Virus record (IMG/VR): IMGVR_UViG_3300044647_001411
Location: 1-25,035 of that record
Source: a virus
DNA: 25,035 nt
Reading direction: 5' to 3' (one strand)
Part shown: positions 4,156 to 20,383 of the stretch, piece after piece
How the letters are laid out: the number at the start of each line of letters is the position of its first letter
Numbering within the stretch: position 1 is the stretch's first letter
Program-made: the position numbers and the translations under genes
The notes under the pieces: model-generated
What the model saw: the letters and a program-made list of their open reading frames with translations, nothing else
What the model was told of the DNA's origin: nothing
Databases searched by the model: none

Positions 4156-7100
4156 GTGAATATAAAAATGGGTGTAAATAGACAGATAACATCTAGCGGT
4201 TCGTTAGGTTTATTTGATATTACTGACGATTTAGTTATTCGCGTTGTTACCGAAGGTGCTGGTCCTAGTAATGCTATTGTAGTAAGAGGACGCATTAAAG
4301 GTCAATCTGCGCTCAATACACTTCAAACAATTACTGGCTCTACCAGCACGACAGTAACAGTAGCTACTTACGAAGAAATTGAAATCGATTGTGCTATATA
4401 TGATCCCCTTGGTACAGAAGTTAAAGTAATTGTAACCTCATTCGACCAAGATATATCCTCTACTGCAGTTCCTATCGGCGCAGCAACCGCAGCCAGACAA
4501 GATACAGGAAATGCGAGCTTAGCTTCTATTGATGCCAAAACTCCTGCTCTTGTTGGTGGCAAGGTTCCGGTAGACATTAGCAGTATCAGCGGTACAGTCG
4601 AGATTACAAACGATGTTGGCAATGCCATACCAGTATCTGCTGCGTCTTTGCCACTCCCCTCTGGTGCCTCAACTGAAGCCAAACAAGATACTCAGGTTAC
4701 GAAGCTCACCTCAATTGACGATAAGACCCCCGCCCTAGTATCGGGTAAAGTTCCCGTAGATGTTGTGGCTTTGCCGTTACCCTCTGGAGCAGCCACTTCT
4801 GCCAACCAATCTACAGCTAACTCAAGTCTTTCTAGTATTGACGGCAAAGTGCCAGCTAACCTCACAGTTACGGCTACTCGCCTATTAGTAGATAATTCAG
4901 GCGTAACACAGCCTATAAGCGCAGCTTCGTTACCCTTACCAGACGGTGCTGCTACTTCGGCAAATCAAACCACAGCCAATTCTAGCCTTTCCAGCATAGA
5001 CTCAAAACTCAGTTCTTTGGGTCAAAAGACAATGGCTAGTTCTACTCCGGTTGTCATATCCTCAGACCAAACAGCAATACCAATAAGTGCTGCCTCTTTG
5101 CCTTTGCCTACCGGAGCTGCCAGCGAATCCACCCTATCAATCTTAAATACAAAAGTACCAGCAAACCTTACAGTAAACTCTACTAGACTTTTAGTAGACG
5201 GGTCTGGCGTTACTCAGCCAATCTCAGGCTCAGTAACTATCTCTAATTTTCCGACAACCCAAGATGTTGCTGTCACAAGTGCCCTTCCTTCTGGAACTAA
5301 TAATATCGGGGATGTTGATGTAGTAACATTACCAGTATCCTTCAATTCTGGTAACTCTGATGCAACAACTCAAAGAGTAGTAATTGCTACAAATCAATCT
5401 GCAATTCCAGTAAGTGGGACTATAACTACTACAATTACTGGCGTATCTACTGAAGCTAAACAAGACACCGGCAATACAAGCCTATCCTCCATTGACGGAA
5501 AGCTTCCGGCTCTTTCCGGAGGCAGAGTTCCCGTTGATATCGGAGGAAATGGCTCTATTACTATTACTTCCGGAACAATCACTGTTCAGAACGAAGTAGA
5601 AATAAGTAACGATACTGGCAATCCGGTTCCAATTTCAGCAAGCACCCTTCCTTTGCCAAGTGGAGCTTCTACAAGTGCTAACCAAACAAATGGCACTCAG
5701 AAAACACAAGTTGTTGATGGCTCTGGAAACGTAATTGGCTCTACCAGTAACGCCCTAGACGTTAACGTTAAGTCAGGGGTTGCTCTTTCTGTTGAGCTAA
5801 GTCAAAGCAGTGACTCTGTTGCTGTTTTTGGAAATGACGGAACTACAAATAGAGCACTTAAAACAGACGCAAACGGAGAACTTCAAGTTGACGTTCTTTC
5901 TAGCGCACTTCCTTCTGGAGCATCTACCTCTGCTCTACAAACCACAGGCAACAGTAGTCTCTCATCCATAGATACAAAATTAACTACCAGTGTTAATGGC
6001 TTAGTTGTTGACGGGTCTGCAGTCACGCAGCCTATCTCAGCATCTAGTCTTCCATTGCCAACTGGGGCTTCCACTGAAACTACGCTACTGGCGCTTAATA
6101 CAAAAGTCCCGGCAAACCTCACAGTAACCGCAACTAGACTTCTTGTCGATAACTCTGGAGTTACTCAACCAGTATCAGCTTCCTCGTTACCACTCCCAAC
6201 TGGCGCTGCTACTGAGACTACTCTTTCTAGTATAAACGGTAAACTCGGTTCCCTTGGTCAAAAAACCATGGCGAACTCAGCTCCTGTCGTAATAGCTTCC
6301 GATCAATCAGCTATACCAGCATCACAATCTGGTACATGGGACATTACAAACATCTCCGGTACAGTGTCTTTACCAACTGGTGCCGCAACGTCTGCACTTC
6401 AAACTACAGGAAATACATCTCTCACAGATATTGCGGGCGCAACTCTTGTAGATAATGCTTCCTTTACGGATGGCACAACTCGCGTTAATGCTGCCGGATA
6501 CGTTCTCGACGAAGTGGCAGGCACGGCATTAACAGAAAATGACATTGCTGCTGCTCGTATTGATAGCAAACGTGCTCAAGTTTTAGTAATAGAAGACGCT
6601 GCAACAAGAGGTCAAAGAGCCTCTGTCAGTGCCTCGGGTGCAATTAAAGTAGATAATTCTGCTGTAACTCAGCCAATAAGTGCAACAGCACTTCCTTTAC
6701 CAACTGATGCCTCCACTTCGGCATTACAAACCACAGGTAATACTAGCTTATCCAGCATAGATACAAAGCTACCATCTAACTTAACAGTAACTTCCACTCG
6801 TTTACTTGTGGATAATTCTGGAGTAACTCAGCCGGTAAGTGCCGCCTCCTTACCATTGCCAACTGGGGCTGCTACCGAAACCACTCTATCCGGAATGTCA
6901 GGCAAACTTCCAGCAACACTTGGTCAAGCAACTAGCGCAAATTCACTTTCAGTAGTGGTAGCGTCAGATCAGTCACCCTTGCCAATCTCCGGAACAATCA
7001 CTTCAACACAAGTAGCTGGAGTAGAGGATGCGGCAAATTCAAGCACCTCTCCTTTACTAGCTAATGGAGTATTTACTGGAACAGCATTCAATGTAACTGG

Positions 7101-7890
7101 GTATGTGGCAATTAACGTTAACGTAAGATCCGATGTAGCGTCTGCTACTGGAGGAGTAAGAGTTGAGTTTTCTCCAGATGGAACCAACTGGGACCACTCC
7201 CATTCTACTACATACACTGCAGCTTCAGGTGTAGGATACATTTTCAACGTTGAGTATAAGTTTGCTCGTGTAGTTTACACAAACAGCGGCACACCGCAAA
7301 CATTTTTCAGACTACAAACAATCTTCAAATCTACACTCACCAACTCTTCTTTGTACACGCTGAGTCAAACTGTTAATAGTAACATGTTTGCACAACTCAA
7401 TAGAAGCATTATTACAGGAGAAACCACTGGAGGAGGTGGAGGATACGTTAACGTAAAAGTTAATCCTTCTGGTGCGATGGTTACTGCCACTACCATTGAT
7501 AGCGCGTTACCTGCTGGTAATAATAACATCGGTAATGTTGATGTAGTTACCTTGCCCGTTTCGTATAATGCTGGCGTTACGGACGCTCAAACCCAGCGAG
7601 TAGTTGTTGCTAATGATCAAACGTTGCCAATATCAGCAGCGTCTTTGCCTCTGCCTACAGGAGCAGCAACGTCTGCTCTACAGACCACAGGAAACTCTGC
7701 TATATCGTCCTTTAGTGCCAAAACTGGCGCAAGTATGGTTGCTGTTGCACACGACGAAGTTGTGGTAACATATGTAGGAAGTTCGAATAGAATTTCTACA
7801 GTAACATATAAACTTGCAACGGCTACTGTTGCTACTTTAACTTTTGCTTACGATGGATCAGATAGATTAACTGGCGTTGTGAGGTCGTAA
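4156..7890 (+). CDS. Giant repetitive tail-fibre / appendage protein (LPLPxGA repeats)
   Basis: The protein has 1244 residues. GTG 4156 is used. Residues 1-105 form a unique beta-rich N-terminal domain. From about 155 to 1180 the chain is built of degenerate modules: SLPLPTGAAT, (S/T)ALQTTGNSSLSSIDxK, VPANLTVTATRLLVDNSGVT, QP(I/V)SAxSLPLP, sometimes with an LGQKTMANSAPVVIASDQSA insert. About a dozen LP(LP)xGA(A/S)T-type copies are visible. A jelly-roll-like insert spans about 978-1058 (VNVRSDVASATGGVRVEFSP, FARVVYTNSG). The C terminus (about 1190-1244) resembles a YD-repeat hairpin (TLTFAYDGSDRLTGVV). Such repeats occur in phage and environmental virion proteins and probably form an extended fibre shaft. 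The exact attachment site is unknown. It opens the fibre block and ends in the TAATATG junction. Confidence 0.75.
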   Translation: MNIKMGVNRQITSSGSLGLFDITDDLVIRVVTEGAGPSNAIVVRGRIKGQSALNTLQTITGSTSTTVTVATYEEIEIDCAIYDPLGTEVKVIVTSFDQDISSTAVPIGAATAARQDTGNASLASIDAKTPALVGGKVPVDISSISGTVEITNDVGNAIPVSAASLPLPSGASTEAKQDTQVTKLTSIDDKTPALVSGKVPVDVVALPLPSGAATSANQSTANSSLSSIDGKVPANLTVTATRLLVDNSGVTQPISAASLPLPDGAATSANQTTANSSLSSIDSKLSSLGQKTMASSTPVVISSDQTAIPISAASLPLPTGAASESTLSILNTKVPANLTVNSTRLLVDGSGVTQPISGSVTISNFPTTQDVAVTSALPSGTNNIGDVDVVTLPVSFNSGNSDATTQRVVIATNQSAIPVSGTITTTITGVSTEAKQDTGNTSLSSIDGKLPALSGGRVPVDIGGNGSITITSGTITVQNEVEISNDTGNPVPISASTLPLPSGASTSANQTNGTQKTQVVDGSGNVIGSTSNALDVNVKSGVALSVELSQSSDSVAVFGNDGTTNRALKTDANGELQVDVLSSALPSGASTSALQTTGNSSLSSIDTKLTTSVNGLVVDGSAVTQPISASSLPLPTGASTETTLLALNTKVPANLTVTATRLLVDNSGVTQPVSASSLPLPTGAATETTLSSINGKLGSLGQKTMANSAPVVIASDQSAIPASQSGTWDITNISGTVSLPTGAATSALQTTGNTSLTDIAGATLVDNASFTDGTTRVNAAGYVLDEVAGTALTENDIAAARIDSKRAQVLVIEDAATRGQRASVSASGAIKVDNSAVTQPISATALPLPTDASTSALQTTGNTSLSSIDTKLPSNLTVTSTRLLVDNSGVTQPVSAASLPLPTGAATETTLSGMSGKLPATLGQATSANSLSVVVASDQSPLPISGTITSTQVAGVEDAANSSTSPLLANGVFTGTAFNVTGYVAINVNVRSDVASATGGVRVEFSPDGTNWDHSHSTTYTAASGVGYIFNVEYKFARVVYTNSGTPQTFFRLQTIFKSTLTNSSLYTLSQTVNSNMFAQLNRSIITGETTGGGGGYVNVKVNPSGAMVTATTIDSALPAGNNNIGNVDVVTLPVSYNAGVTDAQTQRVVVANDQTLPISAASLPLPTGAATSALQTTGNSAISSFSAKTGASMVAVAHDEVVVTYVGSSNRISTVTYKLATATVATLTFAYDGSDRLTGVVRS
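4630..7700 (+). repeat. Degenerate protein-level tandem repeats (LPLPxGA module, about a dozen copies)
   Basis: The repeat core SLPLP(T/S)GA(A/S)T recurs, separated by SSLSSID-K and LLVDNSGVTQP blocks. It is conserved as protein but scrambled at synonymous positions in DNA. For example SLPLPTGAAT is written tct-ttg-cct-ctg-cct, tcg-tta-cca-ctc-cca or tcc-tta-cca-ttg-cca for its first five codons. Confidence 0.75.
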
Positions 7891-8303: not shown

Positions 8304-9293
8304 ATGATTAAAAACGAAAAAGCTTCATCATTAGATTACACAAATGCAATAACTTCCTCCCATAACGAGGAAGCAAAGGCGTTAAATGTAATTAATGTAA
8401 ACAGTCTAGTACCTACTCGATTTGGTAAAGTTGAAATAGATTATATTACTTCTGGATTTGGAGTAGGAGAAATCGGCACAGTCAGGTACTACTCTAACGG
8501 GGCTTATCAGGAAACTAAAGTAATTACTCGTGGAGATAAGCTCGGCACTGCCCACAAAACAACAATCAGCTTCATTAATCGCACCCCTGCTTCTTTAGCA
8601 GGCAAGGCGTTTATCCTATATGACAATGGTGGGGCGGTGAAAGTTTGGTTTAATGTAGACTTTGGTTCTACTGAACCCGCTGTAGCAGGCACCTATCGTA
8701 GCATTGAAGTAAACCTTTTATCTAGCAATGACCACGAAACCGTAGCTAAGAAAGCAGCCCTAGCCCTAAGCATGGATGCGCAGTTTTTAGCTGTTTATAG
8801 CCTCTATTACATCATTGTATCGAGTTCTACGGCAGGTAGTAAGTCTGACTCAAAAGACTTCAATACAAGCCTTTACATTAAGAATACAGCAGGCATCGAC
8901 CCTGTAACTTTGAATAATAAGTACTTTTACATAAACTCAGCCACAAATACTGAAGAGTACTATGTTTGGTACAATGTGAGCGGTGCAGGAACTAACCCCG
9001 CCATTTCAGGCAAAACAGGAGTAATGGTAGCAATATCAACAGGTTCCACCGCTCAGGCTGTTGCGCAAGCTACTAAAACTGCGTTAGATGCTCTCGGTGA
9101 CTTTATAACAAATATAGATAGCGACACCTTATTAATTACTAATAGTTTAATAGGAGTTACGGATTTGGCTCAGGATGTAAATGCGGGATTTCTCTTTTTT
9201 GTACAGAAAGAAGGACAGAGCAGAGATTTACTTGTTACCCTGAACCTTAGTTATAGCAACACTAATGATATTATCTCCGTAGAGAGACTTTAA
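8304..9293 (+). CDS. Tail-associated protein with duplicated beta domain
   Basis: The protein has 329 residues. ATG 8304 lies one base after TAA (TAATATG), with no Shine-Dalgarno in the preceding 20 nt, so expression may depend on reinitiation. After an N-terminal beta domain (about 35-95) there are two copies of one module. Copy 1 (about 98-180) contains AFILYDNGGAVKVWFNVD, then EPAVAGTYRSIEVNLLSSND and an AKKAALALSM helix. Copy 2 (about 202-300) contains KYFYINSATNTEEYYVWYNV, then NPAISGKTGVMVAISTG and an AVAQATKTALDAL helix. This 'YYVWYNVxGxGTxPAxxGKTGxxVxxxTG...A' module is familiar from tail proteins of uncultured phages; its role is unknown. It lies in the fibre block and is inferred to be a structural appendage protein. 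Confidence 0.6.
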   Translation: MIKNEKASSLDYTNAITSSHNEEAKALNVINVNSLVPTRFGKVEIDYITSGFGVGEIGTVRYYSNGAYQETKVITRGDKLGTAHKTTISFINRTPASLAGKAFILYDNGGAVKVWFNVDFGSTEPAVAGTYRSIEVNLLSSNDHETVAKKAALALSMDAQFLAVYSLYYIIVSSSTAGSKSDSKDFNTSLYIKNTAGIDPVTLNNKYFYINSATNTEEYYVWYNVSGAGTNPAISGKTGVMVAISTGSTAQAVAQATKTALDALGDFITNIDSDTLLITNSLIGVTDLAQDVNAGFLFFVQKEGQSRDLLVTLNLSYSNTNDIISVERL

Positions 9294-9569
9294 ATGAAAA
9301 CAGCATTTAATGTTTTTACTGGAAACTTCGACATAGTAGGAACATCGGGAGGAGGAGGCGGGAGTTCAAACGTGTTCGATCTTATCATGGGAGCACCAGA
9401 TAGAATCGCACTTTTTACTTACGCAGACTTTGGCACAAAGAACCAACGAGTTACGAACATTAACTATTCAAGCGCAACTTATGCGAGTTTTACTGTAAAT
9501 AGAGATTTTGCCTACACCTTGGTTGGTAATAGATACAGAAGAGACAGTGAAACTTGGTCATTAATTTAG
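9294..9569 (+). CDS. Short tail protein: FNVFTGNFDIV anchor, Gly linker, YTLVGNRYRRDS C-terminal domain
   Basis: The protein has 91 residues and ATG 9294 directly follows the previous TAA. An N-terminal FNVFTGNFDIV motif is followed by a flexible GTSGGGGGSS linker and a small beta domain that includes ALFTYADFGTKNQRVTNINY and a terminal AYTLVGNRYRRDSETWSLI. The N-terminal motif is shared with the 136-residue protein at 7892. The C-terminal hairpin is the same type of segment as the end of the 1244-residue fibre (FAYDGSDRLTGVV). It looks like an anchor plus a minimal tip and could be a genuine small adaptor or a shortened fibre. The frame is intact, so it is not called a pseudogene. Confidence 0.55.
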   Translation: MKTAFNVFTGNFDIVGTSGGGGGSSNVFDLIMGAPDRIALFTYADFGTKNQRVTNINYSSATYASFTVNRDFAYTLVGNRYRRDSETWSLI

Positions 9570-9580: not shown

Positions 9581-11923
9581 ATGAAATTGTTAGACGTAAA
9601 ACTTCTTGATTCAGTAGGTACATCCTACGATCAAACACGAACGACACTTGCTGGTCGCGTAACACAGCGTACCATTGACTCTAAGCCAGTGCTTGGACCA
9701 TCACCTACTCGATTCCTTGATGTGTTCTCGGACACTGCTGGTGCCTTCACACCGCTCACCACGATGTTTGCTACCGACAACGGGCGGGTGTTCATGATCG
9801 GCGCCATCGCGGGTGGTGCTCTTCCCGTTGTTTGCTATGAGATTAACCAAACCACCGGCGTTCATACCTACGTCGGGCGAGTCAACATCGCCGTGCCATC
9901 ATCTCCTGCGATTGTCCATACAGTGCGATCCATCAAAGTGATTGATAATGGTGTGTCTGGCTGGAAAATCTACATTATCGCTACCGGGACAGTTCTTTTC
10001 GGTGGATCTGGTGTATTGCTTGCGAATAACATTGCAAGAGCGGACTTCTCACAGGTCTCTCCCCCTACAATCCCCTTCGCTACCGGCAACAATCAGAAAG
10101 CTGTCTACCAACTTGGTCGTCTTGCCTCACTCGGCTCTCGTTCCATGACGATCACGCTGGGCGCACCCGTGAAGTTTAACTTCACCGCCCACGGTTTCAG
10201 CAACAACGATCAAGTCTACTTCACCTCTCAGGTTGGCTCTGCGTGGACATCTTCTACATTTGCTGTTAACACAAAGTATTTTGTTCGTAACGCAGGATTA
10301 AATGATTTCGAATTGTCGGCAACCTTTAACGGTCCATCTATCGGTGCTGCCGCCGGACCAACCTCTGTTGTCATGCAGCCACTAAACCAAGAGATTGATG
10401 CCTTTGGTGCAATCATTGACGTGGCAGCAAACCGCCTCTATACCCACGTGGGAACTGCCGCCAACCCACAGTATTTCGTGCGTGATACCTCAGTGGCTCC
10501 AACCTACTCAACCTTGACCGTTGACGTAACGGCGGGATCTCCCGCCAAGATCGGATTGGTCGCCCACGGCTTAACAGAGAACGAGCCCGTTCAATTCCTT
10601 GCTGGCACGCTGCCCGCTCCCTTTGCGCTCAATACGACCTATTTCGTGCGCGTTGTAACAGCAAACGACTTCGAGCTGTCCGCCACCGCTGGTGGTGCCT
10701 CGATTACCGCCGGGACAACCTCAGCGGGTGTGACACTTGGAAAAGCATTCGGCTACACCAATTCCCAGTGGTTGCACTCAACAAGCATTATGCCCGCTAT
10801 AACTGGTACACTTCTGACTACATCCGACGCTGAAGCCATCGCCACTCCAGTTAGTGCTCCACTAAACGGCTCACTCCTCAACGGACAAAAGTGTGCCTTC
10901 TTTGCGACATCAACCAACCTGTACCTTGGACGGCTGGATGAGCTGACTGCCGGTGCAACAACTTGGGCATCACTCACCACAGCGAATATGCTGGGACTTC
11001 CCTCCCAAATTGTTGCTCCGGTTGTGGTGACTGCTTCATGGTCCGATGCGCTTGATCACGCTATTGTGCTGATTGGTCAAGCCGCCACCAACGCATTTCG
11101 GTTCATGCTCAAAAAGGTTGAGAACAACAAACTGACCGCCTTGTTTGGCGACTCCTGCATGGAGTTCTACGAGACAACAACTAAAGAGGCGTATGAAATG
11201 CGCCCATCATTGCCATACCTCAACTTCACGAACAACTCTGGCTGGCTCTTTGGTCTATCTTCTGCAACTGGTCAGAGAGGTGTTTTTGCCTCTGATGTGA
11301 GATCGGACTCTTTGTTTGATCACAGTTACATCGTTTCAAAAGTTTTAACTCTTCCTCAAAATGCTGTAATAAAATCAGTAGACGTAGAAAAAGAACTTGT
11401 TAAAACTGGAGGAGACGTTAAGGTTGATTATCGGCTAAGTGGCTTCGGCTCCATTTCAGGTGGATGGATTGAGCTAGACCCCGACCAAGAGCTGTCTATT
11501 ATAGCTGGAACTCAAGTTCAATTCAAACTAAGCTTCAAAACACATACATTTGATAGAACAAGTCACGTTCAAATTTCTGACCTGTTGGTTGGCTACGACG
11601 CACTAGAAGAACTTTCTGACAACTGGGAATACTCTTACGACGATTCTTCTGCGGGATCTCCAACTCGCATTGGATTCCGCTTGAAGCAAGCATACGCAAC
11701 ATCAATCCCATCTACGCTTAAGTTTCAAGCTTCTGATCTTAGTGGGACAATTCTTGTAAGTAATACAATTACAGCTAATCCGACTAATTTCCAATATTCT
11801 ACGGATGGCGGAACGACTTGGCTTAATCTTGGGACAATTCCTAATACAGTGGGGACGCTTGTAAGATACACCTTCACAAGCCCTCCGGGGACAGATATTC
11901 GTCCGAGCTTGAAGGATAGTTAA
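9581..11923 (+). CDS. Large mosaic tail-fibre protein with two 'HGF/HGL' modules
   Basis: The protein has 780 residues from ATG 9581 with a strong AGGAGAG site. Residues 40-180 and 390-570 look like repeated beta-strand blades (VVCYEINQTTGVHTYVGRV; LYLGRLDELTAGATTW). Between them are two related modules: about 190-265 (FTAHGFSNNDQVYFTSQ, FAVNTKYFVRNAGLNDFELS) and about 313-388 (LVAHGLTENEPVQFLAGTLP, FALNTTYFVRVVTANDFELS). This module is frequent in environmental phage tail proteins. The C terminus (about 580-780) is a different beta-rich region with FQYSTDGGTTWLNLGTIP. Codons for roughly residues 20-570 are GC-rich (about 47-63% in sampled 60-nt lines) while both ends match the AT-rich neighbours, which suggests an exchanged central part. 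The role is inferred as a fibre or host-contact protein. The stop overlaps the next start (TAATG). Confidence 0.65.
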   Translation: MKLLDVKLLDSVGTSYDQTRTTLAGRVTQRTIDSKPVLGPSPTRFLDVFSDTAGAFTPLTTMFATDNGRVFMIGAIAGGALPVVCYEINQTTGVHTYVGRVNIAVPSSPAIVHTVRSIKVIDNGVSGWKIYIIATGTVLFGGSGVLLANNIARADFSQVSPPTIPFATGNNQKAVYQLGRLASLGSRSMTITLGAPVKFNFTAHGFSNNDQVYFTSQVGSAWTSSTFAVNTKYFVRNAGLNDFELSATFNGPSIGAAAGPTSVVMQPLNQEIDAFGAIIDVAANRLYTHVGTAANPQYFVRDTSVAPTYSTLTVDVTAGSPAKIGLVAHGLTENEPVQFLAGTLPAPFALNTTYFVRVVTANDFELSATAGGASITAGTTSAGVTLGKAFGYTNSQWLHSTSIMPAITGTLLTTSDAEAIATPVSAPLNGSLLNGQKCAFFATSTNLYLGRLDELTAGATTWASLTTANMLGLPSQIVAPVVVTASWSDALDHAIVLIGQAATNAFRFMLKKVENNKLTALFGDSCMEFYETTTKEAYEMRPSLPYLNFTNNSGWLFGLSSATGQRGVFASDVRSDSLFDHSYIVSKVLTLPQNAVIKSVDVEKELVKTGGDVKVDYRLSGFGSISGGWIELDPDQELSIIAGTQVQFKLSFKTHTFDRTSHVQISDLLVGYDALEELSDNWEYSYDDSSAGSPTRIGFRLKQAYATSIPSTLKFQASDLSGTILVSNTITANPTNFQYSTDGGTTWLNLGTIPNTVGTLVRYTFTSPPGTDIRPSLKDS
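9640..11290 (+). other. GC-rich mosaic segment inside fibre gene
   Basis: Sampled 60-nt lines here are about 47-63% G+C (for example 62% at 9781-9840 and 63% at 10561-10620, counted by hand). Flanking lines at 7081, 11281 and 11701 are about 38-42%. The change is abrupt near 11290 and falls within one open reading frame. Confidence 0.7.
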
Positions 11924-13011
11924 TGGCTAATCTATTATTCGCGGGGGGAGCTGTCGTACAAGGCACAACCCTCAGCGGCATATTCGGTAATCAACTTGTG
12001 ACAGGAGGGGCATTTCAGCCCTCCTCACAAGCTTGTATTGTCGATTTAACGCCTCCTACCTTTAGTGGAATTAACTTTCTTACTAGAGGAGCTTTGGGAC
12101 AACTTAGAGCTGCGTGGTTTACTGCATCAGATACATCTTCTCCAATTAGGTATGAAGTTTATGTTCAAGCGGAACCAGCTTCAAATCTTTTCAACACAGC
12201 AAACATAGCATTAATTACAACGAGCTTACAAGCTGATGTATTTGCTTTAGCTGACGGCTCTCTCCTTCAGTCTGGAGTAAAGTACTTCGTCGGAGTACGG
12301 GCAGTTGATGCAGTTGGCAACAGAGATAGTAACATCGTAAGTCTCTCACAAACAACTCCGGGCATTACAGGTGCAACAAACGCTAAAATCAATGGCGTAT
12401 TCGCTGTGAATAATAGTAATCAACTTATTGCTAGTTTCTGGGTAAACGATAACGATGGTGTTATTGATGACCCAGCTCGTCTTGGACTAGCTAGTTATGT
12501 AATTTATGACCAGAATGGAAATCTTGTTCCAAGTATGAGTCAGAATAACATTTCTGCTGACTCAGAAGGTTTTTACGAAATCACCCCAGTGCCTTCTGTT
12601 CTTGACTTAGACAATACTTTTTATACAGTAAAGGTTACTATTTTTGTAGATGGCATTGCAATTGTCTATAACCTACCAATTACTTATGCAGAAGCTGGTC
12701 CTCAATACGAACCAAGAGCTGTATTCTCAATTGATGCAGCTAACCAGCTACAAGCTACCATTTGGATTACTAAGAATGGAGAACAGATTAGTACCAATCT
12801 TGGAACTGCTTCTTACGCAGTCTATAACAAAGATGGAGCAGCTTTAGGAATATCCCAGTCTGGCATTGTGGCAGATGTTAATGGATTATTTAAAACAACT
12901 CCAGTACTGGCAGTAGCTTTAACAGACTTGACTCACTATACTGTAATATTTAACATAACTGCCGACGGAGCCATAAGAAAAGGCGCAGTTGGTATTACGG
13001 TGGCGGAATAA
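11923..13011 (+). CDS. Tail protein with fibronectin III-like domain and tandem beta repeat
   Basis: The protein has 362 residues. ATG 11923 overlaps the previous TAA (TAATG). After an N-terminal segment (MANLLFAGGAVVQGTTLSGI), residues about 42-148 resemble a fibronectin type III domain (TPPTFSGINFL, RYEVYVQAEP, VKYFVGVRAVDAVGNRDSN). Two homologous copies follow. Copy 1 (about 155-262) has NNSNQLIASFWVNDN, YVIYDQNGNLVPSMSQNNIS and YTVKVTIFVDG. Copy 2 (about 265-362) has DAANQLQATIWITKN, YAVYNKDGAALGISQSGI and YTVIFNITADG. Fibronectin III domains are common surface adhesion modules on phage tails. The protein lies between the fibre and the adaptor genes, so it is probably a tail appendage or tail-tip part. 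Confidence 0.6.
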   Translation: MANLLFAGGAVVQGTTLSGIFGNQLVTGGAFQPSSQACIVDLTPPTFSGINFLTRGALGQLRAAWFTASDTSSPIRYEVYVQAEPASNLFNTANIALITTSLQADVFALADGSLLQSGVKYFVGVRAVDAVGNRDSNIVSLSQTTPGITGATNAKINGVFAVNNSNQLIASFWVNDNDGVIDDPARLGLASYVIYDQNGNLVPSMSQNNISADSEGFYEITPVPSVLDLDNTFYTVKVTIFVDGIAIVYNLPITYAEAGPQYEPRAVFSIDAANQLQATIWITKNGEQISTNLGTASYAVYNKDGAALGISQSGIVADVNGLFKTTPVLAVALTDLTHYTVIFNITADGAIRKGAVGITVAE

Positions 13012-13012
13012 T

Positions 13013-13558
13013 ATGGCAAGTAGACGAGTTATGATGCTAACAAATAACCAGTATGTGCAGCCACTTAAGTTGTCATTTAATAACAAAAAAGTTATTACGC
13101 CAAATGCGGCATACAACTCTATTGTTACTAAAGTTGATTTTCAAAAACCACAGAATAAAGATTTTAAAGTTAAGGCGTGGTTGAGATTTAACTCAAACAC
13201 GTTTGACGGAGTTCAGTTAGTAGGTTCTCTTGTAAGGGGTAAAGATACTAAGACAATCGCAGGCTGTACGTTTAAAGTGTACTCTATAGATTTAACAGAT
13301 TCGTGGGTGGAAACCCTTCGCACAACAGTATCTGGAACTGCCATATCGGGGAATAGATTTTCTGCAAATGTTTTAGAGGCAGCTTTGGCTCCTGCGGATT
13401 TGACTGGAGAGATAACCTACAAGATTGAAGTCACCGTTACAAGGCTTGGAAAATCGTACTCTGACGTATTTTACTTTAATCACTTAGGAATTTACGATAG
13501 TTTTATTCGACTTAAGAATGATGTAGAGTTTTTGGACATTACAAAGAAAGATTTATAA
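13013..13558 (+). CDS. Small beta-rich tail protein (FYFNHLGIYDSFIRLK C terminus)
   Basis: The protein has 181 residues. ATG 13013 (MASRRVMMLTNNQ) is preferred because it makes the TAATATG junction with the preceding TAA; the longer in-frame start at 12989 would overlap the previous gene. The body is beta-rich (VKAWLRFNSNTFDGVQLVGS, YKIEVTVTRLGKSYSDVF). The C-terminal FYFNHLGIYDSFIRLKNDVE then FLDITKKDL resembles a conserved ending of phage tail proteins I recall as 'NHLGxYDSxxRLxxxVEFLxxTKxD'. The function is unknown, but placement at the end of the fibre block suggests a protein connecting an appendage to the tail. A 36-nt gap with a hairpin follows. Confidence 0.6.
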   Translation: MASRRVMMLTNNQYVQPLKLSFNNKKVITPNAAYNSIVTKVDFQKPQNKDFKVKAWLRFNSNTFDGVQLVGSLVRGKDTKTIAGCTFKVYSIDLTDSWVETLRTTVSGTAISGNRFSANVLEAALAPADLTGEITYKIEVTVTRLGKSYSDVFYFNHLGIYDSFIRLKNDVEFLDITKKDL

Positions 13559-13980: not shown

Positions 13981-14982
13981 ATGATTAGTTCAGTAAAAGC
14001 TGGGCTAACTACTTCTGCCATTTTAAAATCAATTAAACGCAGAACGTTAGTTCCGGACAATCAAAACACCTTTAGCGATCAAGACTTCATTGATTTAATG
14101 AATGAAGAGATGATGATTGGCATTGTACCTTCTGTTTTACAAACGAAAGAAGAGTACTTTATTTTTAAGCAAATTGTTCCTCTTGTACCAGATAAGTCAA
14201 ATTATCCGATACCAGAAAGAGCATTGGCTAACAAACTTCGCGAGATTTGTTTTAGAGATACTGCCAGTACGAACTTCAATAATGAATATGAGATGACTCA
14301 AATCGCTATTGATGATCGATATACAGGATTGTCAAATGGTACTGGCTCAAGCGATTTTACTGGATTTAGACGCTTTTACGTAATGGGAAGTGATATTGTG
14401 CTTCATCCAAACGTAGGACCAACTCCTTATGGTGCTTTAGCTTTTTATTATTATCTTAGACCAAATAGCTTGGTAAAAGACAGTCAAGTTGCGAGTATTG
14501 TAGCTATTAATAGGACAACAGGAGAACTATCGTTATCGAGTATCCCCGCTGGATATACGCTATACTCTGCTGCATCTAATAACGTTCTATTAACTGGATA
14601 TGATTTTGTTAAAGCCAAGTCGCCTCATAATATTTTAAGTATTGACGTTGCTGCTATAAATATTAATAATACAACTAAAGTTATTACTGTAAATCCTGCC
14701 TCTATACCAAAAGATTTAGAGATTGGGGATTATATGACTTTGGCTGGACAAACCTGCGTTCCTAACATTCCAACAGAACTTCACATGGTGTTAGCTCAAA
14801 GAGTAGCTCAGAGAGTTTTAGAAGCAATTGGCGACACGGAAGGTCTTAATAACGCTACAGCAAAAGTTGCAGAAATGGAAAATAAGTTATCTACGATGAT
14901 GGACAATCGCGTAGAAGGTGCTCCGCGCAAAGTTGTCAATAGGGCACTAATGACCGGGGTTGCTAGAAATAGACGGAGGTAA
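13981..14982 (+). CDS. Head-tail adaptor, tail tubular protein A-like
   Basis: The protein has 333 residues and ATG 13981 lies 2 nt after the previous stop. The N terminus (about 14-92) has ILKSIKRRTLVPDNQNTFSD, then DFIDLMNEEMMIGIVPSVL, KEEYFIF and YPIPERALANKLREICF, a pattern I recognise in adaptor / tail-tubular-A proteins of environmental podoviruses. The middle contains FYYYLRPNSLV and a beta-rich insert. The C-terminal helices (about 258-325) include VPNIPTELHMVLAQRVAQRV, EAIGDTEGL and DNRVEGAPRKVVNR, also typical. In T7-like and P22-like phages this protein (T7 gp11, P22 gp4 analogues) forms a dodecameric ring under the portal, onto which the nozzle docks. The next gene is the expected nozzle, which strengthens the call. 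Confidence 0.7.
   Translation: MISSVKAGLTTSAILKSIKRRTLVPDNQNTFSDQDFIDLMNEEMMIGIVPSVLQTKEEYFIFKQIVPLVPDKSNYPIPERALANKLREICFRDTASTNFNNEYEMTQIAIDDRYTGLSNGTGSSDFTGFRRFYVMGSDIVLHPNVGPTPYGALAFYYYLRPNSLVKDSQVASIVAINRTTGELSLSSIPAGYTLYSAASNNVLLTGYDFVKAKSPHNILSIDVAAININNTTKVITVNPASIPKDLEIGDYMTLAGQTCVPNIPTELHMVLAQRVAQRVLEAIGDTEGLNNATAKVAEMENKLSTMMDNRVEGAPRKVVNRALMTGVARNRRR
14975..14980 (+). promoter_or_regulatory. Ribosome binding site deciding GTG start at 14985
   Basis: GGAGGT lies 4 nt before GTG 14985 and overlaps the upstream stop region (TAA 14980-14982). It supports the GTG start of the nozzle gene. Confidence 0.6.
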
Positions 14983-14984
14983 TT

Positions 14985-17822
14985 GTGGCTAATCAAATAG
15001 TAAATCTAAAAGCTGCAGGACTTCAAACTTACTTCCAAACACTCATGGAGATATCTCCGGGCGCACTTCTTAAAGCTAATAATACAGTAATTAATAGAGA
15101 TGGCGTCATTGAACCAAGAAGAGGAATCAAAGCTTACGGTTCAAGTTTTGGAACATCCTCTGATCGATGTAAACAGCTTCTCGAATACAAAGGCAGAATC
15201 ATTCGTCACGTTGGGAATAAGCTTGCTTACGATAATGGAGTTGGAACATTCACTAATTTTTCGGGAGACTATCTAGAGCCTATTTCTGGATTTAGAATTA
15301 AATCAGCAGAAGCTAAAAGTAATTTTTATTTTACTACTAGCGATGGAGTTAAGAAAATATCAGCTCGCTCTGCTGCAGATTTAAGTTTATCAAATGTAAT
15401 ACAAAACACTGGCGGTCCAAAAGCTATTTCCGGAGCATTGTCATTAAATGGTGCTAGTGGATTCCTGTTAAATGGAGACACTGTAGCATATCGAATCCTT
15501 TGGATTTATACTGACAGAAATCAAAATCTAATATTTGGTGCTCCTTCTGCGTCTATGCTTATCAGCAATACATCAGGAGGAACACGCAATGTTCAACTTG
15601 ATTTTCAAATACCTTATGATGTAACCTCTACGGACTACAAATATCGTATATACCGTTCCGAGATGTCAGCATCTGGAACTCCCTCTGACGAACTATATCA
15701 AGTATACGAAGATAGTCCAACAACTGGGGAAATTACCGCAGGACAAATTAGTGTTGTTGATTCCTTAGCAGAGTCTCTGCGTTTAGGAGGAGTGCCTCTT
15801 TATACAAATCAATATAGTGGAGAAGGTATTCTTAAGTCAAACGAACCACCTCCTGCTGCCCGTGACATTGCACTATTTAAAGGTCATATGTTTTATGCTA
15901 ACACCCGCACAAGACACTCTACACAATTTACTATTTTGGACCTTTCATCCTTTGTTGCAGGAACAAGCACTTTTGTAATTGGAACAACATCTCCTGCTGT
16001 TTCTTTTACATATACATTTAATACAACAGAAAATATAGCAACAAGAACGGTTGAACTTGATCCCCTTAGTATTGAAGATACAGCTAAATCACTCGTAAGA
16101 GTTATCAATGGTAATAGCGCAGAAATTGTCACAGCATACTATCTTTCTGTAGTTGGAGAAGCTCCGGGCAAGATTCTTTTACAAAGAAAGACTTTAGCAA
16201 ACAACACTTTTTATATCGGCACAACACACGCGGCAATTGCTACAGCGTTTAATCCAGAACTTGGAACTGGCGGAACGCTCACTACAAAAGTACTAAGTAC
16301 AGTTGAAGCGATTGGTAATAGATTGTACTATTCAAAATATCAGGAAATCGAAGCTGTTCCTCTTTTGAACTACATCGATATCGGATCAAGAGATCAAGAA
16401 ATATCTCGCATTATTTCACTACGAGAATCTCTGTTTGTCTTTAAGGGCGATGGAGTATATCGTTTAGCTGGCGATCCGGGCGTTAATCCTATATGGGATA
16501 TTGGAGCATTCGATCTCACTTCGATAATTAAAGCTCCGGATACAGCAACTACCTTAGCTAATAATTGTTACTATTTCAGTAATCAAGGGATTATTAAACT
16601 CAACGAGTCTACTCTTGAGCCTATTTCCCGTCCAATTGAAGATAAGCTTATTCCGTTTATTTCTACCAACCCAAACTTAGAGAACGTATCTTTTGCTGTA
16701 GGGTATGAATCCGACAGAGCACTTTTAGTTTGGACGGTAGCGACAAAGAACGACACTATTGCTACCGTTTGTTACAGATATAGCGTTGTTACAAATGCAT
16801 GGACTGAATGGAAGATACCTAAAACTTGCGCAGTTCTAAATAGTCACGAAGACAAGCTATACTTTGGTTCAGGTAATGATAATTATGTCGAAGTAGAACG
16901 AAAAGACTTTGGGCGATTTGATTATGCTGACAGAGAACTTCCGTTATCTTTCTCATCAAGCGGTCTATCAGGAAATGTAATTAAACCATCGGGGTTTTTT
17001 TCTATTGCTCTGGAGGATGTACTTCTACAGGAACAATATGTCACAATACATCAGTATAATACATTACTAAGACACCTTGATCTCGATAATGGTTTAGTGG
17101 TTCGTAATTTCTACAACGAACTTAAAATGGTAGCAGGGGATAACCTTACGTTTATAATGTCCCAGCTTGTAACGAAACTCAACATAGCCGATCCAACAAC
17201 AAACTATAGTTTACTATGGACCAACCCCGCTGCATTTAACACTATTCAGACACAATTCAACGCGATTGTTACAGCATTAAATGCTTCAAGCGGAGCTATC
17301 CTAACTAACTACGTACAGTCTACCGGCACAATTAAGTATGAAGCTATTGTGACCGCATTAGATTCGATTAGACAAGAAGTAACCCTCAATGCTGTGCCGC
17401 CCTTCATGGTGGGTCCATTAACGCTTTATAAGGGAATTAAGACCGAAATAGAGTACGCTCCTCAACATGCAGGAGATCCGGCAAGCTTTAAGCAATATTC
17501 GGTTGGCACGTTCATGTTTGAAAGAAGGTCTTTCTACACCGCACAAACTGCATATAAGAGCGACATAAGTGATAGTTATGAAGAGATCTCTTTTCAACCA
17601 AATGCTGCTGGTACTTTTGGAACTAACACTTGGGGAGATAGTTCTGCCTTTGGCGGACAAGGTGATCAAGGGCAAATACGTACCTATATTCCATTAAAAA
17701 AACAGAGATGTCGTTTTCTTGGCTGTAAGTTCACACACGGAGTAGCATTAGAATCCTATCAACTTTACGGACTCGCTTTATCTGTACGACAATATGCTAT
17801 ACCAGACAGAGATTACAAATAA
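14985..17822 (+). CDS. Tail nozzle protein, tail tubular protein B-like
   Basis: The protein has 945 residues from GTG 14985 with a GGAGGT site. The N terminus (QIVNLKAAGLQTYFQTL, NTVINRDGVIEPRRGIKAYG) matches the start of nozzle-type proteins, where the chain begins with 'NRDGVIExRRG'. Blade-like repeats follow (YKGRIIRHVGNKLAYDNG; YRILWIYTDRNQNLIFGAPS; ESLFVFKGDGVYRLAGDPG near 482-500; NNCYYFSNQGIIKLNE; RYSVVTNAWTEWKIP near 605). This fits the beta-propeller of T7 gp12 / P22 gp10-like nozzles, which form the hexameric tube under the adaptor ring. The length fits larger members. The adjacent adaptor gene and downstream ejection proteins agree. An insert at about 320-430 resembles modules of tail fibres. 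Confidence 0.7.
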   Translation: MANQIVNLKAAGLQTYFQTLMEISPGALLKANNTVINRDGVIEPRRGIKAYGSSFGTSSDRCKQLLEYKGRIIRHVGNKLAYDNGVGTFTNFSGDYLEPISGFRIKSAEAKSNFYFTTSDGVKKISARSAADLSLSNVIQNTGGPKAISGALSLNGASGFLLNGDTVAYRILWIYTDRNQNLIFGAPSASMLISNTSGGTRNVQLDFQIPYDVTSTDYKYRIYRSEMSASGTPSDELYQVYEDSPTTGEITAGQISVVDSLAESLRLGGVPLYTNQYSGEGILKSNEPPPAARDIALFKGHMFYANTRTRHSTQFTILDLSSFVAGTSTFVIGTTSPAVSFTYTFNTTENIATRTVELDPLSIEDTAKSLVRVINGNSAEIVTAYYLSVVGEAPGKILLQRKTLANNTFYIGTTHAAIATAFNPELGTGGTLTTKVLSTVEAIGNRLYYSKYQEIEAVPLLNYIDIGSRDQEISRIISLRESLFVFKGDGVYRLAGDPGVNPIWDIGAFDLTSIIKAPDTATTLANNCYYFSNQGIIKLNESTLEPISRPIEDKLIPFISTNPNLENVSFAVGYESDRALLVWTVATKNDTIATVCYRYSVVTNAWTEWKIPKTCAVLNSHEDKLYFGSGNDNYVEVERKDFGRFDYADRELPLSFSSSGLSGNVIKPSGFFSIALEDVLLQEQYVTIHQYNTLLRHLDLDNGLVVRNFYNELKMVAGDNLTFIMSQLVTKLNIADPTTNYSLLWTNPAAFNTIQTQFNAIVTALNASSGAILTNYVQSTGTIKYEAIVTALDSIRQEVTLNAVPPFMVGPLTLYKGIKTEIEYAPQHAGDPASFKQYSVGTFMFERRSFYTAQTAYKSDISDSYEEISFQPNAAGTFGTNTWGDSSAFGGQGDQGQIRTYIPLKKQRCRFLGCKFTHGVALESYQLYGLALSVRQYAIPDRDYK

Positions 17823-18226
17823 TGAAACTTCAATCCATCCGCATAAAAAGTTCCGACTTTCCAGAGGAGCAGAAAGAACTTGCTGATTCTCTCGGAGGGC
17901 TACTAAATCCGTTCATTGACAAGCTTGTAATTGGATTTAATAAGAACTTTACTGTAGATGATAATCTTCCATTTGAATTTAAGACGTTAGATACTAAAGT
18001 CAACGGTAGCGGAGTTCCTCAGATAAATGGAGCAATTAGTACTAATCTAAGAAACTTAAAGGGTTATATTTGTATTAATGTTATCAATCTCGACGGCACT
18101 ACAGTATACCCAACAGCCACACCTTTCTTAAGCGTTGAAGTTAATACAAACATTGTAAACATACGTCATATCGCAGGGTTGCCAGCTAATACCAACTACA
18201 GGCTAACTCTTCTCGCTATAAGTTAA
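17822..18226 (+). CDS. Small conserved virion-associated protein next to nozzle
   Basis: The protein has 134 residues. ATG 17822 overlaps the nozzle stop (TAATG), so translation is coupled. The N-terminal helix (ELADSLGGLLNPFIDKLVIGFNKN, given here as its extent, about residues 20-42) is followed by FTVDDNLPFEFKTLDTKVNG. The C terminus has PFLSVEVNTNIVNIRHIAGL then NTNYRLTLLAIS. The layout 'LNPFxxxxVxxxNKxxTxxDN ... I.I..IxGLPANTxYxLTLLxI' is that of a small protein found beside the nozzle in many podovirus-like environmental genomes. The function is unknown, but it is probably a structural component of tail or capsid. Confidence 0.6.
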   Translation: MKLQSIRIKSSDFPEEQKELADSLGGLLNPFIDKLVIGFNKNFTVDDNLPFEFKTLDTKVNGSGVPQINGAISTNLRNLKGYICINVINLDGTTVYPTATPFLSVEVNTNIVNIRHIAGLPANTNYRLTLLAIS

Positions 18227-18259
18227 TAATAACAAATATTTAATGAGATAGAGGAAATA

Positions 18260-20383
18260 ATGAAAATCAAAATTAAAAAGCCTAAAATTAAAGTTTCAGC
18301 ACCAAAAGCGGTAACTAAAGCTATCAGTGCTGTAACAAAACCTCTTGAGACTGTGGCTAAGGGTGCTGTTCAATCAACCGGAGACATAGCTAGTTCTGCT
18401 TTAAAAGGTGATATTAAAGGTGTTGCTGGTGGAGCATTGGGCGCAGTTCAAAGTTTAAAGGACGCAGGTAAGCAACTTGCTTCTGGACAACTTTCTTTAG
18501 GAGCTGACGTGTTGGGCGCTGCTGGAGGATTAACTGGAAGCAGAGATATCTCCAGTCTTGCAGGCAACATTGAACGTGAAGGTCTGAAAGGCATCGAACA
18601 ATATGGTGATACTGCCATGGATATCGGAGCCAATGTAGCCACCGGAGGAACTTATGGTGCTGCCCAAGCTGCGACACAGAGCTTAGCTTCTGGTGGTTTA
18701 AAAGGTCTTCTCAGCGGTAAAGGATTGCAGGACGCGGCACTACAAGCTGCGGGTTCTTATGCCGGAGTTGATCCTAACATGCTACAAGCAGGTCTATCAG
18801 CAACACGAGGTGATTTAAGGGGTGCTGCTTTACAAGGACTCGGTTCTTATGGCGGATTCGATCCTAAGCAATTACAAATGGGGATGTCTGCTATTACGGG
18901 AGACAAAGCCGGAATAGCTTCTGGTCTGGCTTCGCAATTTGGTGCAGGAGATACTGCGTCTGGTATGATTGGTAAGTTTGCTGGCGGAAGAGGAGCAAGA
19001 GAAGTTATTTCAGATCAAGCTGGGGCTTACGCTAATGATGAAATGAATCAAGCGCTAGATGCGCAAATGGGCAGAGCTGGCGTAAGTAGAGAAAAACTTA
19101 AAGATATAGAAGCTAAAGTCGGCAAAGTTAAAAATGTTCCTGCTAAACTTAAAGATATTGCAAAAAATAAAATAGCAAGTATTGATCCTGAATATAAAAA
19201 ATGGGAAGCAGCTCAGGTAGGATATATTGGAAAAGAAAAAAAAGCAGCAATGCAACGTCTTTTACAAGATAAAAATAACATGTCTTCAGACGATTTTACT
19301 ATAGCTCAGGCTCAAATTTCTGAAGGAAAAATTCCCGATAAGTATAAGATGCAGCCAAGTAATTCTACCGCTACAAAAGAACCGGGAATGTTGGATAAAT
19401 TTAAAGGGTTTGTTGCTGGAAATAAAACAGGATTAGGTCTTGGGGCAGGAGCACTTGCTGCTGGTGCTGGATACGTGGCGGGAGAATCTGCTAGAGATGA
19501 AGCCAAGAAACTAATGAGCCAACAACTCGGTGATGTACAAGCTGCTGGTAGAGAATTTCAGGGAATGAAATATGATCCCGAAAGATATAAGCAAGAACGT
19601 GAGTTTATACAGCAACGTATTGCTGGTGGAGGAATCACTCCTCAAGAAAAGAAAATGCAACAAGAAGGCGACATTCGCGCAGCAAGAGCTGCCGCAGCAC
19701 AACGTCTTTCTGGTATGGAGCAACAAGCTCGCATGGGGGCAGGTGCTACTGGTGCAGGAGCTTCGTTGGCTGCATCGTTGGCTGGAGGACAGGCAGCAAT
19801 GTCAGAACAGTCTTCAGCTAACTTAGCTAGAGAAGCGTCTGCTAGTCAGAGATTGGAACAAGACATTCAGAGACAGACAAATCTTGCTCGTCAACAAACA
19901 GCAGAAGAAGCAGATCTGTCTCAACAGCAAGGTCAGTTTGGATTATCGAGAGCAGGGCAAGCTGCTGGGGCAAGAACTGCATTGGGTAATTTGGCTTTAG
20001 CTAGAGGAGAAGCTTTAACTAAATTAGCTACAGAAGGAAGAGATTTAGCTGTACAAGCAATTGAAGGAGTGCAGCAACCGGCGCAGCCTTCTCAGCCGCA
20101 GCAACAATCACAACAGCAACCTTCGGTACCAAAGGCTAAAGTGGGAGGCGCTAGACGATTAGCACAAAGAACCTCAACTCCGCCTCCAAAACAAACCCCA
20201 AAACCGGCAATACAACAATTTAATCAACAGAATGCTCCACAGCCCGGTCAAGGTCAAGGATTTGGCGTATTAGCTCCAGTAGGGCAAGCTGTACAGCAAG
20301 TGCAGAGTACTGTTGATCAAGCAAAGAAAAAAGCGGAAGAATTTAAAAAGAATCCACTCGGTTCGTTGGGAATCAAATTTTAG
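18260..20383 (+). CDS. Large internal virion / DNA-ejection protein candidate (Ala/Gly/Gln-rich)
   Basis: The protein has 707 residues from ATG 18260 with GAGG upstream. The N terminus is very basic (MKIKIKKPKIKVSAPKAVTK). A long Gly/Ala/Ser/Leu-rich region (about 40-245) contains repeated LKG-D-GAALQ(G/A)xGSYxGxDPxxLQ(A/M)G units; two or three are visible near 155-220. A lysine-rich helical part follows (about 275-330). A hydrophobic segment at about 391-409 (GLGLGAGALAAGAGYVAG) could span a membrane, then come long Gln/Glu/Ala helices (420-590). The C-terminal linker (605-680) is rich in Pro and Gln, and the end is basic. This composition and position after the nozzle are those of podovirus internal core/ejection proteins (P22 gp7, gp16, gp20 or T7 gp14-16 analogues), which leave the capsid ahead of the DNA. 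Sequence homology was not tested. Confidence 0.6.
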   Translation: MKIKIKKPKIKVSAPKAVTKAISAVTKPLETVAKGAVQSTGDIASSALKGDIKGVAGGALGAVQSLKDAGKQLASGQLSLGADVLGAAGGLTGSRDISSLAGNIEREGLKGIEQYGDTAMDIGANVATGGTYGAAQAATQSLASGGLKGLLSGKGLQDAALQAAGSYAGVDPNMLQAGLSATRGDLRGAALQGLGSYGGFDPKQLQMGMSAITGDKAGIASGLASQFGAGDTASGMIGKFAGGRGAREVISDQAGAYANDEMNQALDAQMGRAGVSREKLKDIEAKVGKVKNVPAKLKDIAKNKIASIDPEYKKWEAAQVGYIGKEKKAAMQRLLQDKNNMSSDDFTIAQAQISEGKIPDKYKMQPSNSTATKEPGMLDKFKGFVAGNKTGLGLGAGALAAGAGYVAGESARDEAKKLMSQQLGDVQAAGREFQGMKYDPERYKQEREFIQQRIAGGGITPQEKKMQQEGDIRAARAAAAQRLSGMEQQARMGAGATGAGASLAASLAGGQAAMSEQSSANLAREASASQRLEQDIQRQTNLARQQTAEEADLSQQQGQFGLSRAGQAAGARTALGNLALARGEALTKLATEGRDLAVQAIEGVQQPAQPSQPQQQSQQQPSVPKAKVGGARRLAQRTSTPPPKQTPKPAIQQFNQQNAPQPGQGQGFGVLAPVGQAVQQVQSTVDQAKKKAEEFKKNPLGSLGIKF

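Follow-up and report, generated by a model that had tools for sequence, protein, structure and literature searches.

How a single gene with an intact reading frame comes to carry two base compositions is the question raised by a virus record of IMG/VR (IMGVR_UViG_3300044647_001411). The stretch analyzed here, referred to as a whole as the window, has a length of 25,035 bases and encodes on its plus strand a protein of 780 residues (9581-11923). An initial annotation had described a GC-rich central segment of this gene at about 9640-11290, with an abrupt edge near 11290 and an unbroken frame, and had proposed that the host-contact part of the protein had been replaced by recombination with a phage of higher GC content.

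A scan of GC content and codon usage, which had been suggested along with that proposal, was performed and the break was clearly seen. In sliding windows of 300 bases the GC content was 0.49-0.56 from about 9601 to about 11250, about 0.39-0.41 ahead of 9601 and 0.40-0.44 beyond about 11290. The GC3 values were 0.25 for the first approximately 20 residues (9581-9640, plus strand), 0.53 for residues 21-570 (9641-11290, plus strand) and 0.33 for the C-terminal approximately 210 residues, 571-780 (11291-11923, plus strand), and the GC contents at the three codon positions were 0.535, 0.505 and 0.529 in residues 21-570 and 0.49, 0.438 and 0.329 in residues 571-780. The other listed genes have GC3 values of 0.22-0.40, with 0.29 overall for the rest of the window. 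For a synonymous test, the number of GC-ending codons to be expected was calculated with the amino-acid sequence unchanged and codon frequencies taken from the window itself. In residues 21-570, 276 of 535 codons were GC-ending, where 142.7 were expected (z = 13.2), and the z values of residues 571-780 and 1-20 were 1.2 and -0.8, respectively. All 112 control stretches of 550 codons, slid across the other genes, fell between -3.2 and 3.0. Amino-acid content could be ruled out as the cause of the GC rise, since the z value of 13.2 was obtained with the amino acids fixed. The 3' edge is sharp, GC3 falling from 0.47 in the 30-codon block starting at 11201 to 0.23 in the block starting at 11291, and the 5' edge is softer (about 9640-9780); the breakpoints were placed inside 9640-9780 and 11230-11310. 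The segment, its abrupt edge and the intact frame were thus all confirmed.

Relatives of the gene were found in a scan of viral contigs, which yielded 46 loci, 36 of them with the whole gene. These 36 relatives are co-linear with the window protein over residues 1-779 or 1-780, with identities of 47-92% in the best segment. Together with the window they gave the 37 sequences of the codon analysis; the 10 other loci, with partial genes, were dropped. No match was obtained with tblastn of the 780- and 362-residue proteins against 50,697 phage records at 1e-3 or with megablast of positions 1-25000 of the window. Two scans of bacterial and archaeal genomes returned 24 and 31 pattern matches and zero relatives, and therefore no host or prophage can be named.

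The GC-rich tract and the remainder of the gene have different closest relatives. Residues 21-570 are 93-94% identical in protein and 87% and 84% in DNA to the loci L005 and L006, to which residues 571-780 show only 72-74% (protein) and 65-66% (DNA). DNA identities to L001 and L004, both from AT-richer phages, are 86% and 81% in residues 21-570 and 90% and 89% in residues 571-780, where the protein is 92-94% identical to L004 and to the three loci L001-L003. The first approximately 20 residues are L004-like (98% nucleotide identity), and over the first 30 codons the window is matched at 90% by L004 and at 68% by L001. There are 476 informative positions, at which the window agrees with either L004 or L005 but these two do not agree with each other. 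In the best stretch (9781-11230) 168 sites match L005 and 53 match L004, as compared with 34 and 221 outside it, and none of 2000 shuffles of the sites scored as high. The corresponding score for L001 versus L005 is weaker and spans codons 74-230 only. Synonymous third-position identity to L005 was 0.80, 0.76 and 0.61 in three stretches of the tract and 0.39 beyond residue 566; for L004 the values were 0.50, 0.72, 0.49 and 0.82.

Trees were calculated for codons 30-560 and codons 580-780 from 30 sequences, 7 near-identical ones having been dropped. The two trees were mutually rejected in AU tests (p = 2.8e-7 and 8.5e-77; delta lnL 620 and 755), a significant conflict between the phylogenies of the two parts, as in a mosaic gene. 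In the first tree the window groups with L005 and L006, with bootstrap values of only 78% and 65%, and in the C-terminal tree with L001 and L004 (97%). The 780-residue gene is a recombinant, and its tract stems from a higher-GC lineage according to composition, site pattern and tree conflict, which bears out the proposal that the central part was replaced by way of recombination with such a phage. The tract itself is patchy: over the 30-codon patch of residues 401-430 (approximately 10781-10870), DNA identity to each of the 20 relatives shown is no more than 62-79%. This patch may come from another donor or form a fast-evolving loop. In a changepoint scan of pairwise divergence (253 non-independent pairs of 23 close sequences, 7 more distant ones having been dropped) the peaks lay at residues 21-40 and 561-580 (13/164 each), followed by residues 681-700 (12/164), a modest sign that exchanges stop near domain borders.

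The ends of the gene had been described as native, which holds for their composition (z = -0.8 and 1.2) but is weakened by the C-terminus and the next two genes being shared with other backbones. Moreover, homologues with a uniform composition and a co-linear gene, which had been named as an observation against an exchange, do exist, yet they represent the two parental types, with high GC in L005, L006, L017 and L019 and low GC in L016, L025 and L027. Separate searches with the tract and with the C-terminus, for which shared peptides were needed, returned mostly the same records as the whole-gene scan and no phage combining the window-type C-terminus with an unrelated middle, or the reverse.

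The lineage from which the tract came is marked by its base composition. For L005 and L006 the backbone GC3 values are 0.58 and 0.55 and those of the tract-homologous region, named propeller below after its predicted fold, are 0.57 and 0.51; the window propeller (0.54) lies far above its own backbone (0.29). Since backbone and propeller are alike in L005 and L006, the composition of the tract is that of their lineage, and a shift in composition thus coincides with the donor lineage, as is typical for a mosaic gene. With best relatives at 93-94% in protein and 84-87% in DNA, L005 and L006 are only related to the donor, neither being the donor itself, and the tract, diverged by 13-16% in DNA from them, is not recent. 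A GC-rich propeller of this kind (0.53) is likewise present in the loci L001-L003, on backbones with GC3 values of 0.23-0.29, and L004, used as a proxy for the recipient, also has a partly GC-rich one (0.44). Because L001-L003 combine a GC-rich propeller and the window-type C-terminus on a third backbone, the exchange may have occurred in a different phage and predate the arrival of the cassette in the window's phage. Propeller GC3 exceeds that of the own backbone by at least 0.08 in 12 of the 37 sequences and lies at least 0.11 below it in 4 of the 37, so that traffic seemingly runs both ways. In these four (L014, L023, L024 and L040) the propeller is 0.11-0.17 below a GC-rich backbone, which suggests that AT-richer phages were the source here and GC-richer ones the recipients.

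The gene is part of a cassette with the order small adaptor gene, 780-residue gene, 362-residue gene and gene for a protein of about 180 residues. In the window, all on the plus strand, the adaptor gene occupies 9294-9569, directly upstream of the 780-residue gene, the 362-residue gene (family 2) 11923-13011 and the last gene, here of 189 residues (family 3, GC3 0.34), 12989-13558. According to the neighbour maps these genes are the same in most relatives, and the surroundings beyond the cassette differ between loci. The gene or genes 3' of the 780-residue gene are 88% identical to those of the window in L001 and 76-96% in L004. For the 362- and approximately 180-residue partners no Pfam match above the cut-off was obtained. 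Several backbones carry an insert (family 9) between these two partner genes, which in its complete form comprises three genes for proteins of approximately 149, 606-616 and 205 residues (L027, L036, L037) and is partial in L016 and L035.

From the gene maps 32 of the 37 loci were sorted into backbone groups, the 5 unassigned loci being left out of the pair counts. The cassette occurs on at least five backbones (A-E), carrying tape-measure, tail-sheath or SU10-adaptor genes. Group A consists of the window, L027 and also the partial locus L029 and has an SU10-type adaptor gene; group B, with L005, L006 and L011 among its members, encodes a tape measure along with a phrog_267 major head protein; a tail sheath is found in group D, which includes L001-L003; and groups C (with L004 and L037) and E have terminase and portal genes. 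Aligned over 82%, the tail sheath of one group D locus (L002:209-2359) and the sheath of Myxococcus phage Mx1 are 45.5% identical. Flanking gene families were compared between loci with families 0-4 omitted, family 4 being a broad cluster which includes tail-like genes. Pairs sharing any flank family numbered 0/28 for A-B, 0/28 for A2-B, 1/112 for B-C, 1/56 for B-D, 4/8 for A-D and 5/16 for A-C. Within groups, sharing was 89/91 for B and 28/28 for C, which is circular due to the fact that the groups were assigned from the same maps, so that only the between-group counts serve as evidence. Groups A (in the record of L029) and C have portal and major head proteins from the same PHROG families and are thus not fully unrelated. 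The window propeller is 93-94% identical to those of two group B members (L005, L006) despite the absence of shared flank families in all 28 A-B pairs. A syntenic module in otherwise unrelated flanks is therefore what the cassette order on backbones A-E and the between-group counts describe. As judged from the marker genes tape measure phrog_1535 (L011), tail sheath phrog_279 (L002) and SU10 adaptor PF24175 (window), the carriers differ in tail type.

The place of the cassette varies with the backbone. In L011 (group B) the genes for terminase and others, one of them in portal position, are followed by those for the major head protein (8568-9446), the adaptor (9652-9984) and the fibre protein (10001-12337), with the tape measure at 16732-19449 downstream of the cassette. 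In L037 (group C) it lies between the portal and major head protein genes, and in group A behind the major head gene and several fibre-like genes (record of L029) and ahead of the SU10-type adaptor gene (window). The latter, a short-tail marker of the backbone at 13981-14982 (plus strand; Pfam PF24175, E 2.4e-6, above the cut-off), follows right behind the cassette region. Two cassettes (L052:11729-16518 and L053:15316-16645) were seen in the 95.6 kb record of L045, a divergent one with a 684-residue protein between the portal and major head protein genes and a window-like one behind the major head protein and fibre-like genes.

The small adaptor gene immediately precedes the 780-residue gene in 43 loci, including the window. 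Its last approximately 64 residues (in the window 9375-9569 with the stop codon, plus strand) are conserved in the cassette across backbones and align throughout the 43 loci, with some divergent members. The N-terminal approximately 27 residues (9294-9374, plus strand), in the window an FNVFTGNFDIV-type tag with a glycine-rich linker, vary between backbone groups as read by eye. Ten group B loci have the SGT.RD type and most of group C the LD..QVL type; the five group D loci all have MAIERKLGLVSP, and the FN...T type is shared by the window, L027, L029 and a few loci of group B. BLAST clustering of the N-termini merged groups through short low-complexity matches (28/42 in one cluster), and for this reason the association of anchor and backbone rests on the N-termini as read. 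From these sequences the adaptor would combine an N-terminal virion anchor typical of the backbone with a common C-terminal connector to the propeller protein. The window additionally encodes a protein of 1244 residues (4156-7890), built from repeats around 'SLPLPTGAATS', which clusters in the adaptor family; as its C-terminal end resembles the adaptor connector, the connector domain may terminate several virion proteins.

A structural model of the 780-residue protein was generated from 30 aligned sequences with medium confidence (mean pLDDT 73.9). It matches many kinds of beta-propeller from residues 24-39 to residues 555-581 (approximate limits) at Z of about 16, the matches being spread over unrelated propellers at tied Z. 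Residues 21-570 are therefore predicted to form a beta-propeller, and the exchanged tract covers this predicted domain almost exactly. In the alignment two stretches (approximately 190-265 and 311-390) resemble each other and constitute related repeats inside the predicted propeller; both also have matches among the PHROG families. Phage endosialidases and Photorhabdus lectins were among the better Foldseek matches, with low TM-scores; for the endosialidases 3gvk and 4hiz the Z values (16.3 and 16.0) are tied with those of many unrelated propellers, at identities of only 6-13%. Pfam gave nothing above the cut-off for this protein, and PHROGs matched it with three families only, in two stretches each and best within residues 268-385, among them phrog_9370 (tail fiber protein, residues 268-383). 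The C-terminal part was modelled alone as all-beta with low confidence (mean pLDDT 65.4), and neither Foldseek (best E 2.7e-3) nor VIA-align (best Z 6.2) assigned a confident fold to this model. That the tract is the host-contact part, as had been assumed, is a guess; what is predicted for it is a beta-propeller.

Taken together, the locus is best explained, with a probability of about 0.88, by a virion-attached adhesin whose propeller was swapped in frame from a higher-GC lineage inside a mobile cassette. The protein would begin with a short N-terminal segment, continue with a beta-propeller that spans about residues 24-39 to 555-581 and contains two inserted repeats, and end in a C-terminal part rich in beta structure. 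The propeller-coding DNA of an ancestor was exchanged without loss of the frame, probably by homologous recombination, for that of the corresponding gene in another phage, a higher-GC one from the tape-measure-type lineage of L005 and L006, with both edges of the exchange near predicted domain borders. Recombination probably took place in co-infected cells through the shared cassette. Because the cassette is carried by many unrelated phages, those with no detected homology of structural genes elsewhere can recombine there, and because the adaptor joins a backbone-typical N-terminus to a shared connector, the same propeller protein may fit different virions. The phage would probably benefit by acquiring a binding surface that already works on a shared host or surface polymer. 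Both receptor binding and virion location of the propeller protein are inferred.

An assembly artefact, in which reads from the related cassettes of two phages were fused where the gene is conserved, would be conceivable in that the similarity of the gene between phages is high enough to mislead an assembler, and in that the window is a fragment for which no near-identical second record was found. The same GC-rich and GC-poor layout with the same 3' edge was seen in L001-L003 from three metagenome datasets, though, and this shared break speaks against a chimeric assembly. These three loci, nearly identical among themselves, differ from the window by about 8% in protein and have another backbone, and the tract is only 84-87% identical in DNA to its donor-type relatives; a chimera is consequently very improbable. 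Still less credible is a rise of propeller GC in place through selection on synonymous codons or mRNA structure. The 12 sequences with elevated propeller GC3 would suit it, but no rise occurs in L027 (0.19, backbone 0.22), L025 (0.24, 0.28) and L016 (0.28, 0.24), the difference is reversed in GC-rich backbones (L014 -0.17, L023 -0.14, L040 -0.11), and the tree conflict and site pattern need recombination. A more serious possibility, though one judged unlikely, is that the cassette had already become recombinant in a third phage, with its propeller taken from the lineage of the tape-measure type and its C-terminus from another, before the window's phage received it whole, in a single block; the tail-sheath type seen in L001 would be an example of such a third phage. 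L001 does share the GC-rich propeller (92%), the C-terminus (94%) and the next gene (88%) with the window; against this, its first 30 codons agree at 68%, compared with 90% for L004 (98% over the first 20), and the synonymous identity of residues 31-230 is higher to L005 (0.80) than to L001 (0.65), pointing to at least one further exchange in the line of the window.

The function of the propeller and its position on the virion are separate matters. A structural propeller like the nozzle or muzzle of T7, SU10 or crAss phages, instead of a host-binding fibre, has labels of structure matches in the viral library on its side (P22 Gp10 DNA-stabilising, stabilization protein and tail tubular protein B), and the crAss muzzle and SU10 nozzle are described as seven-bladed propellers with inserted domains (PMC10172136, PMC9509320). 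It is nevertheless improbable, as the cassette is present in phages with tape-measure or tail-sheath genes, phrog_9370 is a tail fiber family, and phage endosialidases and lectins are among the propeller matches. In addition, the window has another nozzle candidate, a 945-residue structural backbone gene (14985-17822, plus strand; phrog_3287, E 9.6e-10) behind the SU10-type adaptor gene, ahead of which the 780-residue gene lies, so that the role of nozzle need not fall to the propeller protein; the name of this candidate is inferred. Tentatively, the cassette might be a plug-in adhesin common to a community of unrelated short-tailed, long-tailed and contractile phages, in which small adaptors with interchangeable virion anchors present a single shared propeller protein, perhaps attached to capsid or neck and not to the tip of the tail, and in which the propeller recombines as a unit across all these phages. 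A capsid or neck site is suggested by the tape-measure backbone, where the cassette lies directly behind the major capsid gene and ahead of the tail genes. The frequent place near capsid genes is compatible with a capsid or neck appendage, although gene order is no proof; head fibres which bind cell surface polymers are known, e.g. in a gene transfer agent (PMC7296036).

The swapped-propeller adhesin can be compared with systems in which host recognition is modular. The Alteromonas phages A5 (a schitovirus), V22 (a myovirus) and P24 (siphoviral) are reported to share a host-recognition module, and the authors also cite a few other cases across morphotypes (PMC10579305). Like the module described there, the present cassette is syntenic in phages of different morphotype with otherwise unrelated genomes. 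For the Alteromonas module, cell binding by the tail fibre was demonstrated, and the fibre has a chaperone; the propeller cassette differs from that description in its propeller protein with an upstream adaptor, its larger number of backbones and a compositionally marked exchange inside one gene. As in the modular receptor-binding proteins described for Klebsiella phages, with an N-terminal anchor and an exchangeable specificity part (PMC8262889, PMC6872550), attachment and specificity parts would evolve apart; unlike in those descriptions, the attachment part seemingly resides in a separate small gene, and the middle was exchanged instead of the C-terminal end. With the endosialidases of K1F (endoNF) and phi92 and the Photorhabdus lectins the link is a beta-propeller predicted from fold comparison, a generic match at 6-13% identity. 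With the nozzle or muzzle of T7, SU10 and crAss001 the protein would have in common a propeller with inserted beta domains, but its gene moves among phages whose tail machinery differs, and another nozzle candidate is present in the window. No published description of the propeller cassette was found in the open-licence literature.

Sharing of host-recognition modules across morphotypes is thus already documented, and the present case is an unusually clear exchange at the level of a domain. The documented cases of such exchange between tail types are few, and here one family occurs on at least five backbones, with a base composition that directly marks the lineage giving the middle domain. Direction, edges and frequency of gene flow across morphotypes thereby become measurable in public metagenomes. 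The locus further suggests that a short shared cassette suffices for homologous recombination of unrelated phages, and the adaptor layout, if true, would explain how one binding protein fits different virions.

With regard to the host, a weak hint was obtained from the freshwater Silvanigrella aquatica phage CP017838. It is the best named relative in the phage collection both for the nozzle candidate of the window, with 29.9% identity over half the length of the 945-residue product, and for the major head protein of the backbone (L051:5921-7144, 28.5%).
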